64,000 nucleotides of DNA, taken from Blastocatellia bacterium. Lineage in GTDB: Bacteria; Acidobacteriota; Blastocatellia; Chloracidobacteriales; Chloracidobacteriaceae. A program made the position numbers and the translations under genes. The stretch spans positions 1 to 64,000 of the forward strand of contig JAIBAN010000041.1 of NCBI GenBank assembly GCA_019695185.1, read 5' to 3'. The notes below the pieces were generated by a model, which made no database searches, was not told the origin of the DNA, and worked only from the letters and a program-made list of their open reading frames with translations. Positions 55,950 to 57,767 of this stretch are shown piece after piece; the stretch's first letter is position 1, and each line of letters begins with the position of its first letter.

Positions 55950-57767
55950 TCAGACAGTTTCAACCTCATAATCCAAAGGGGGTTCAGCTTCTTCGAGCGC
56001 ATCCGCAGATGCCGCCCAGTGCCCATTCCCTGCTGATGCCGCCGTCAACAATTTTCCCAAACGGAGATCAATTTCGTTGAGCAGCGGAGTCAGGGTTTCG
56101 CGCCGGAGCGCAGAAATACCAACAGCCCCATAGCTGTGGCACAAATTGCTGATGGTTTCCACAGGCAAACCATCGCATTTGTTAAAAACCAAAATCCGTG
56201 GCAGTTTGGAAAGATTCAAATCACTCAAAATGGATTGAACTGCCTCAATATGCCGTTCAAAATCAGGCGCTTGGGCATCCACCAGATGAATGAGCAGGTC
56301 GGAATCCTCCATCTCTTCGAGCGTCGCCTTGAATGCCGCAATCAGGGTTTCGGGCAAATCCCGAATAAACCCGACCGTGTCGTTAATCACAATTTCCTGC
56401 TCACGGGGCAACCGCAGGCGGCGACTGGTCGGGTCCAGCGTGGCAAACATCCGGCTTTCGGCCAAAACTTCGCTGGCTGTCAGCGTGTTAAGCAGCGTTG
56501 ATTTGCCGGCGTTGGTATAGCCCACAATCGAAACCACTGGAACATCCCGTTTGGTCCGGCGGGCCCGGCGGGCGTTCCGATTTCGGCGAATGTCAGTCAG
56601 CAGTCGTTCCAGCGCCGTAATCCGGTCACGGGCCCGGCGGCGGTCCACTTCCAGTTTGGTTTCACCCGGTCCGCGTCCGCCAATGCCCCCTTCCAGGCGG
56701 GACATATCAGCCCCTTTGCCGGTCAGACGAGGGAGCAGATATTTCAACTGGGCCAGCTCAACCTGGATTTTGCCTTCGCGGCTTTGGGCCCGCTGGGCAA
56801 AGATGTCCAGTATCAACTGAGTCCGGTCAATCACTTTCAAATCGGTCGCGGCCTCAATGGAACGTATCTGTGAGGGCGACAAATCCCGGTCAAAAATAAT
56901 TATGTCCGCCGTCAGTTGCAGACTGCGGATAATCAAATCCTGTAATTTCCCTTTTCCAATGACCGTATTGGGGTCCAGTTGCGGACGTTTTTGGACGAGT
57001 GCGTCCACCACCACCAAACCGCTGGAACGGGCCAACTCCTCCAACTCAGCCATGGATTCCTGGGCCAATGCCAGACTGTCGGTCGTCACTCCGACGAGCA
57101 ACGCCCGGTCCCGCTTGTCACGGGCACTGCGCTGACCGCGAGTGCGCGCAAACTCGGCCTCCAGGGCCTCAATCAGCTCCAGAAAATCAACATCAAGCTG
57201 GCTGGGGTGAACTTTGGGCAGAAAAGCCCAAGGCTGTAATGAGGACTGAGGGCTGAGGGCTGAGGGCTGAGGGCTGCTTTCCCCAAAGAGTTCTTCATCG
57301 GCAGGAACGGAATCGACAGGGTTGCCGATTTTGGACTGAGGACTGGCCGGGACCAAGTGGGCGGCATGAATCCAGCCCGGCAAACCTTCGGAAGTGATGC
57401 TGACGACAGCCATCAAATCCAATCGCAGGAGGGCCAAGTCGGTCAGGTCGTCCTGTGTCAGTCCTTCACCGGTAAGCTGAGTGTGGATACAACGGAGGCC
57501 ACGAAATCGGCCCTGCCCGACACGGACACGCTTCACATCCGGAATCACGATTCCGCGGGCATCCCCTACCATCACATACTCAACCTGTCCCTGCCGATTG
57601 ATTAAGACACCAACCTGGCGGCGGATTTCGGCTGAAAGTTCGGTCATCTGCCGGGCAAACTCCTGGGTAACGAGTGCCGTCGGCGGAAGGCGACGCTGAT
57701 AGAGTTTCTCAAGCCGTTTAATCTGGTTGGCCTTGAGGCCAAGTGTATTGCCTTCAAGCGTACTAAT
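55950..57767 (-). CDS. hflX: GTPase HflX (proposed ATT start)
   Basis: 605 residues if it begins at ATT 57767; 565 from the first ATG at 57645-57647. The 40 codons before that ATG are open and read ISTLEGNTLGLKANQIKRLE and on to TALVTQEFARQ, a sequence typical of the N-terminus of long HflX proteins, and contain no ATG, GTG, TTG or CTG. AGGAG lies seven bases before the ATT. The HflX-specific domain has GGIGGRGPGETKLEVDRRR; the G domain has GYTNAGKST (G1), a Thr in FATLDPTSRR (G2), DTVGFIRDLP (G3) and NKCD (G4). HflX is a ribosome-splitting GTPase in stress. A heptamer array inside the gene encodes a Ser/Pro/Gln-rich linker (about residues 160-180 of the long form). Confidence 0.9.
   Translation of the reverse strand: MSTLEGNTLGLKANQIKRLEKLYQRRLPPTALVTQEFARQMTELSAEIRRQVGVLINRQGQVEYVMVGDARGIVIPDVKRVRVGQGRFRGLRCIHTQLTGEGLTQDDLTDLALLRLDLMAVVSITSEGLPGWIHAAHLVPASPQSKIGNPVDSVPADEELFGESSPQPSALSPQSSLQPWAFLPKVHPSQLDVDFLELIEALEAEFARTRGQRSARDKRDRALLVGVTTDSLALAQESMAELEELARSSGLVVVDALVQKRPQLDPNTVIGKGKLQDLIIRSLQLTADIIIFDRDLSPSQIRSIEAATDLKVIDRTQLILDIFAQRAQSREGKIQVELAQLKYLLPRLTGKGADMSRLEGGIGGRGPGETKLEVDRRRARDRITALERLLTDIRRNRNARRARRTKRDVPVVSIVGYTNAGKSTLLNTLTASEVLAESRMFATLDPTSRRLRLPREQEIVINDTVGFIRDLPETLIAAFKATLEEMEDSDLLIHLVDAQAPDFERHIEAVQSILSDLNLSKLPRILVFNKCDGLPVETISNLCHSYGAVGISALRRETLTPLLNEIDLRLGKLLTAASAGNGHWAASADALEEAEPPLDYEVETV
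57237..57350. repeat. GGGCTGA heptamer array within the hflX coding sequence
   Basis: Bases 57240-57276 are five units GGACTGA/GGGCTGA on the plus strand, and 57332-57347 hold two more. On the coding (minus) strand they read CAGCCCT and stay open in the hflX frame, giving SPQPSALSPQSSLQ. No complementary second arm is present. Confidence 0.9.

Follow-up and report, generated by a model that had tools for sequence, protein, structure and literature searches.

The TAACTGA heptamers of Beggiatoaceae and cyanobacteria are 7-nt tandem units found mostly in intergenic regions, where most repeats lie just 5' of start codons and, according to the published account, a single inverted repeat was found (MacGregor 2015, PMC4679880). 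One strand of the unit carries stops in all frames, and the copies within ORFs stand in the reverse orientation, encoding the peptide LSVISYQ; these intragenic arrays lie mostly outside assigned domains, and past mobility was considered (PMC4679880). As far as that description extends, stop-free-orientation heptamer arrays inside genes are already known in Beggiatoaceae.

The GGGNATC heptamers of Xanthomonas and Nostoc are also mostly intergenic and include many inverted pairs in what is termed "convergent orientation," in which the G-rich unit is carried by the coding strand where it follows a stop codon and by the non-coding strand where it precedes a start codon (Rehm 2015, PMC4692102). These repeats are scarcer between divergent genes, and one unit type per genome is described (PMC4692102). 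Meanwhile, the Rickettsia palindromic elements (RPE) are reported as palindromic repeats of 100-150 bp that lie inside reading frames, leaving them unbroken, at exposed places (PMC3767692).

Here, we analyze a heptamer array inside the hflX gene of a Blastocatellia bacterium, located in a window of 64,000 nucleotides (the whole stretch of DNA under study), together with the repeat class to which it belongs. In the respects that MacGregor's paper covers, this class resembles the TAACTGA system in its 7-nt tandem units, its mostly intergenic location, and the stop-free orientation of its copies within ORFs, whereas here inverted pairs account for most arrays, units of several families occur side by side, and arrays are in some cases located at loops within domains. 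Set against the published GGGNATC description, with its GGGAATC inverted pairs, the polarity relative to gene ends is equal and pairs are likewise fewer between divergent genes; however, at least seven families share a common polarity here, even when the two arms of a pair differ in family. The G-quadruplex reading associated with the GGGNATC system does not fit units whose G runs are short or absent, such as GAGAATT and CCATTTG. Set beside the RPE as reported, the hflX tract is in frame and falls in a low-confidence linker of the predicted structure, and it could, but need not, be an insertion; it is a non-palindromic tandem array with no inverted partner within 250 bp.

Results

Two heptamer arrays in the linker of HflX

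The hflX coding sequence occupies positions 55950-57647 on the minus strand and, from its ORF, translation, and Pfam matches, encodes 565 aa with a long N-terminal extension; GTP-bdg_N (104.9 bits), GTP-bdg_M (103.9 bits), and MMR_HSR1 (73.4 bits) all score above their cut-offs. The initial annotation had reported five tandem units and a further pair inside this gene, and both can be read directly from the letters. The main array, written on the plus strand at 57243-57276, consists of GGACTGA (57243-57249), three GGGCTGA units (57250-57256, 57257-57263, and 57264-57270), and a terminal GGGCTG (57271-57276), corresponding to residues 124-136 within SSPQPSALSPQSSL; TRF delimits it at 57240-57276, with period 7, 5.3 copies, and a 96% match. 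The second, shorter array, GGACTGAGGACTG, is formed by GGACTGA (57333-57339) and GGACTG (57340-57345), also on the plus strand and in an orientation identical to that of the main array, and encodes residues 101-105 within ASPQS. On the coding strand, both read as TCAGYCC repeats without a stop in any frame, while the opposite strand carries TGA, as had been claimed. Separating them are 56 bp (57277-57332, minus strand; KIGNPVDSVPADEELFGE region), whose translation resembles the acidic linker of a relative, L003, with ADEELFGES in the matching place of EDDDLFSDD. Given this likeness, the inter-array stretch is probably old.

In the predicted HflX structure, built on a 19-sequence alignment with a mean pLDDT of 72, the longest run of pLDDT below 50 comprises residues 102-136 (57240-57344, minus strand), that is, almost exactly both arrays and the intervening part. 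No column is invariant across residues 100-143 of the same alignment, and no match to a solved HflX chain begins before residue 160, which places them all past the array region.

The array is confined to one lineage

HflX was searched in 58 genomes, our own included, and all 58 have it; 28 of them gave no locus and hence stand outside the alignment, which joins 30 loci from this search (our own included) with 80 from a second one, for a total of 110. The two sets overlap, as the linkers are identical for L005/L121, L014/L122, and L017/L123. Relatives are represented by one genome per species, the nearest belonging to a sister genus. Over the 110 loci, the linker measures 14-49 residues (median 16), our own being second longest with 48; the longest, at 49 aa, is that of the sister-genus locus L002 (genome G003), 76% identical and without an array. 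The linkers of relatives are unrelated and of low complexity.

An alignment of HflX across relatives had been set beforehand as the test for this tract, and an array of at least three units was absent from the linker at 109 of 109 other loci, leaving no old conserved linker and only our own copy with the array. Judged from these aligned loci, the tract is lineage-specific. A net gain of DNA in the linker is shown only in comparison with short-linker relatives and not with L002; insertion into hflX is unproven, since the array-free linker of this closest relative is just as long, and replacement or local expansion is as possible as insertion. In another genome (G030, locus L016), TATGGAC arrays followed by GTCCATA stand at the start of the hflX open frame, immediately ahead of the part homologous to HflX and probably 5' of the start codon.

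A dispersed class of heptamer arrays

The pattern GGRCTGAGGRCTGA, a GGRCTGA dimer, occurs 1082 + 1109 = 2191 times in the 8.33-Mb genome, while the reversed control pattern occurs 0 times. These dimers are present in 33 of the 147 genomes of the class and are abundant only in our own (G000, 2191), G071 (252), G003 (160), and G085 (102).

We then surveyed arrays, defined by an exact period of 7 over at least 19 bp, in 2,242,050 bases (27% of the genome, window included), in which our own script called 1543 genes (87.3% coding); outside the window, the gene calls come from this script. The survey yielded 566 arrays, of which 444 are intergenic, 90 overlap the end of a gene, 13 stand close to an ORF edge, and 19 are deep, meaning at least 100 bp from the gene start and at least 60 bp from the stop. 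The deep arrays fall at 18 loci, hflX included, one locus having two, and compare with 432 expected by length. Block-shuffled sequence gave 1, 0, and 0 arrays. At equal minimum total length, period 6 gave 11 arrays and period 8 gave 20, against 566 for period 7; periods 9, 10, and 11 gave 119, 21, and 81, respectively, with longer periods requiring fewer matching bases. The commonest family is ACTGAGG (177 of the 566), followed by GAGAATT/AATTCTC (145 arrays), which is stop-free on one strand. The hflX array belongs to this genome-wide dispersed class, and its origin by chance is ruled out by the 0 control dimers and the shuffled-sequence counts.

Arms of different families share one polarity

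Within 250 bp, 343 of the 566 arrays have an inverted partner, 17 have a direct one, and 206 have none. The hflX tract had been described as a single arm, unlike the intergenic pairs, a distinction that does not hold since 167 of the 444 intergenic arrays are likewise partnerless within this distance.

Pairs have a fixed orientation. The same form of the unit stands on the left in 68/68 pairs for GAGAATT, 66/66 for GGACTGA, 45/45 for GGGTTCA, and 18/18 for four smaller families, counts in which some pairs have an arm in common. Among consecutive same-family arrays within 250 bp, taken from seven families and lying between genes or over a gene end, 121 neighbors are left-right, 5 left-left, 3 right-right, and 0 right-left (n = 129), and consecutive arrays of different families, from the same input, are left-right in 22 of 22 cases. 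A looser threshold applied to the three main families gave 149 + 11 left-right, 3 left-left, 2 right-right, and 0 right-left. With 40-70 bp between arms, the counts of the GGRCTGA left-right pattern are 266 in G000 (with overlapping registers included), 28 in G071, 2 in G003, and 1 in G014, while the right-left pattern occurs 0 times in all 98 genomes searched.

The hairpin as sole cause of arm polarity is disfavored, since neighbors of different families are left-right in all 22 cases. A stop codon is not the common feature of left arms, which include the stop-free GGGTTCA as well as GGACTGA and GAGAATT, both with stops; nor is G-richness, which fails for CCATTTG.

Pairs lie close to genes, at a median distance near 3 bp from 3' ends (n = 244) and about 18 bp from 5' ends (n = 180). 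The regions that bear them are tandem in 154 cases, convergent in 45, and divergent in 13, with 3 at piece ends, compared with 652 tandem, 132 convergent, and 203 divergent among background intergenic regions of at least 100 bp. The core between the arms has a median length of 69 bp (deciles 44-103 bp), and cores are mostly unique: for 36 of 212, a similar one occurs at another place in the 2.24 Mb, and 15 of these 36 belong to the GGGTTCA family. The 56-bp spacer of hflX, considered as an imported core, has no strong match elsewhere in the same sequence (best E 0.83), and this candidate was rejected.

The window itself holds several intergenic pairs of fixed polarity near the ends of flanking genes, at 58117-58137/58213-58249, 58728-58761/58816-58861, 35621-35641/35691-35722, and 42210-42231/42273-42295, in which the left arm is GGGTTCA, GAGAATT, or GGACTGA and the right arm its reverse complement; the opposite polarity was not seen among the intergenic pairs of the window. 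At 12184-12213/12268-12319, GGGTTCA stands on the left and CTCAAAA on the right, keeping the left-right polarity though the two are mutually unpairable. Arrays of 9-bp units (AGTCTTGGG and AGTCTGGGG, with their reverse complements) at 53190-53282 and 61039-61078/61138-61211 behave like heptamer arms; where such units occur inside genes at other places, they encode PDSPDSPDS or SQDSQDSQD tracts. The window also contains 26-bp tandem units with a small palindrome, GCCGCCTGAAGGCGG, in both orientations (12768-12818, 12872-12922, 20990-21092, 21203-21328, and 60335-60386). In G071, a relative from the class, GGACTGA pairs (for example, at C48:92655-92722, C50:52074-52141, and C86:14328-14423) have cores that resemble one another, with CTTGACAG..GTCAAG in the similar part, much as members of a MITE-like family would.

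Arrays deep inside other genes

The host gene has a coding score of at least 60 for 18 of the 19 deep arrays. We scanned 17 windows of up to ~600 aa against Pfam, one for each deep locus other than hflX. Some arrays lie between domains, namely between A2M and TED, between KS and ACP, between PS-DH and SpnB-like, and after HTH_32. Others lengthen or interrupt a match: with the array, the CHAT match spans 350 aa where the model has 287 positions, the LarC match 411 where it has 337, and a glycosyltransferase match 180 where it has 155, while the REC match is interrupted at position 70 by the array and the HATPase_c match comes in two stretches. Paralogues with empty sites exist for REC, HATPase_c, and CHAT, although for 8 of the 19 deep arrays no paralogue spans the array. 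The LarC array, in a histidine-rich loop, is present in our own copy and in 0 of 19 relatives (30 genomes searched, 20 loci read). There are counterexamples, since at C31:41694 the array lies within a DUF7948 match with no added length and at C24:381 within an A-domain match that is no longer than usual; the Pfam matches at C72:222073 and C60 are ambiguous in this respect. As far as these matches show, the other deep arrays would mostly be in linkers or loops. The claim that such arrays occupy loosely constrained linkers within genes is supported for hflX and, within the scope of these matches, for most of the 17 other loci; its further part, insertion into hflX, is not shown.

In paralogous NRPS modules, this A-domain loop is occupied by repeats of other kinds or by long stretches of variable sequence, as if the variable loop before the WYRTGD motif collected repeats. 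In the NRPS/PKS genes at G000:C24:2403-15077 and C72:192004-202050, the A domains of different modules carry differing repeat units in this loop, of the TCAGTCC, GGGTCTG, GGGTTCA-like, and 9-mer types.

All 19 deep arrays are stop-free, which holds partly by construction, as any stop within an array would have terminated the ORF as called. Their main peptides are SVLSPQS and GSGFRVQ. By unit, in exact form, 5 of 177 ACTGAGG and 6 of 108 AACCCTG arrays are deep, compared with 0 of 145 for GAGAATT/AATTCTC (0/145 versus 11/285 for the other two main units; Fisher p = 0.019). The stop-free reading of the latter is NSQFSIL, and this one test, on small numbers, suggests that hydrophobic peptides are less tolerated in genes. 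Stop-freedom alone is not decisive, because GAGAATT/AATTCTC is stop-free on one strand and yet never deep; the stop-free orientation, which had been described as the only tolerated one, is necessary but not sufficient. A genome-wide count of SPQ-array peptides in long frames was set aside, since a long open frame need not be coding.

By eye, 7 of the 18 in-gene loci show a left-type arm followed by one of the right type, the two together being stop-free: GGGTTCA and then TCAGTCCC at C3:16526; a short GGACTGA arm in an open frame and then TCAGTCC at C24:4586; the GGGTCTG type and then the TCAGTCC type at C24:4944 and C72:222073; GGGTTCA and then TGAACCC in an open frame at C34:3658; and GGGTTCA and then the 9-mer at C86:72303 and C86:255133. 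In this count, the left or right label of the GGGTCTG unit comes from one pair and that of the 9-mer from the window alone. These seven loci look like whole two-armed elements. The remaining 11, hflX among them, hold single-orientation arrays, and hflX is a poor example of a whole element because both of its arrays have the same orientation.

Discussion

We consider it probable that the hflX tract is, as a whole, a satellite copy in a disordered linker, stop-free, with the frame kept, slipping, and neutral. It would represent an intragenic copy of the genome's dispersed heptamer satellite, of the GGRCTGA/TCAGYCC family, originating within the lineage itself in the disordered linker that connects the N-terminal extension of HflX to its GTPase body. 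Its survival would have depended on the only stop-free orientation, on an SPQ-rich disordered peptide, and on a total length that preserves the frame. Copy number may have changed later through slippage, the steps of which would have to add up to multiples of three units or else be compensated. This slippage, an arrival by insertion or templated copying, and neutrality are what we infer; the tract is most likely neutral baggage and not part of HflX working. Several points count against this account: the same-orientation arrangement of the arrays around 56 bp is rare between genes (8 of the 129 same-family neighbors), the array-free linker of L002 shows no net gain over the nearest relative, the gene calls outside the window come from our own script, and a few deep arrays (C31:41694 and C24:381) do not fit.

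The equally long L002 linker, together with the unrelated, low-complexity linkers of other relatives, favors a purely local expansion, in which a pre-existing run of Ser/Pro/Gln codons with a chance heptamer grew by slippage without any import. We regard this origin as unlikely, given that the unit is that of this genome's commonest array family and that a second copy of it lies 56 bp away in hflX. The spacing between the two copies, being within the usual core range, could alternatively point to the remains of a whole element that entered as left arm, core, and right arm, whose stop-bearing arm was replaced or lost so that two same-orientation arrays were left, and the seven in-gene loci with both arms in stop-free combinations offer a precedent. 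Such a history is improbable, as no inverted arm exists at hflX and the resemblance of the inter-array stretch to the acidic linker of L003 suggests old hflX sequence instead of an imported core.

Functional readings fare worse. As 7 bp is not divisible by three, gain or loss of one unit would shift the frame and turn HflX off, as in a regulated, phase-variable on/off tract; however, the array class occurs at hundreds of places, nearly all outside genes, and those of its members that are found in genes are scattered over unrelated ones (NRPS, kinases, LarC, and CHAT), making a switch very improbable. An old functional HflX linker is contradicted by the alignment, in which the array is missing from every other locus, and the tract lies in a low-confidence region of the predicted structure; we give this reading practically no credence.

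For the class at large, heptamer arrays could be the polar ends of small mobile or copied elements, with a left arm, a core of ~70 bp, and a right arm, able to enter genes whole, a proposal that we put forward tentatively and hold to be doubtful. If it is true, left/right polarity would reside in the individual arm instead of arising from hairpin pairing, given that arms of different families likewise combine as left-right only (22 of 22); whole entry into genes would occur where both arms form a stop-free combination; and the process behind it would have to be either an enzyme that acts directionally or copying specific to one strand. We found neither fixed polarity across arms of different families nor whole two-armed heptamer elements inside domains in the open-access literature; the fixed polarity of arms with unrelated units and the two-armed loci in genes are what is newer here.

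Any mechanism for heptamer repeats must account for polarity without arm pairing, and arm polarity across units gives a testable form to the open question of what makes and spreads bacterial heptamer repeats. Together, hflX and the 17 other loci constitute a usable set for measuring which orientations, frames, and peptides are tolerated. In this sense, the hflX tract is a small example of non-coding satellite DNA turning into protein sequence, apparently without harm.
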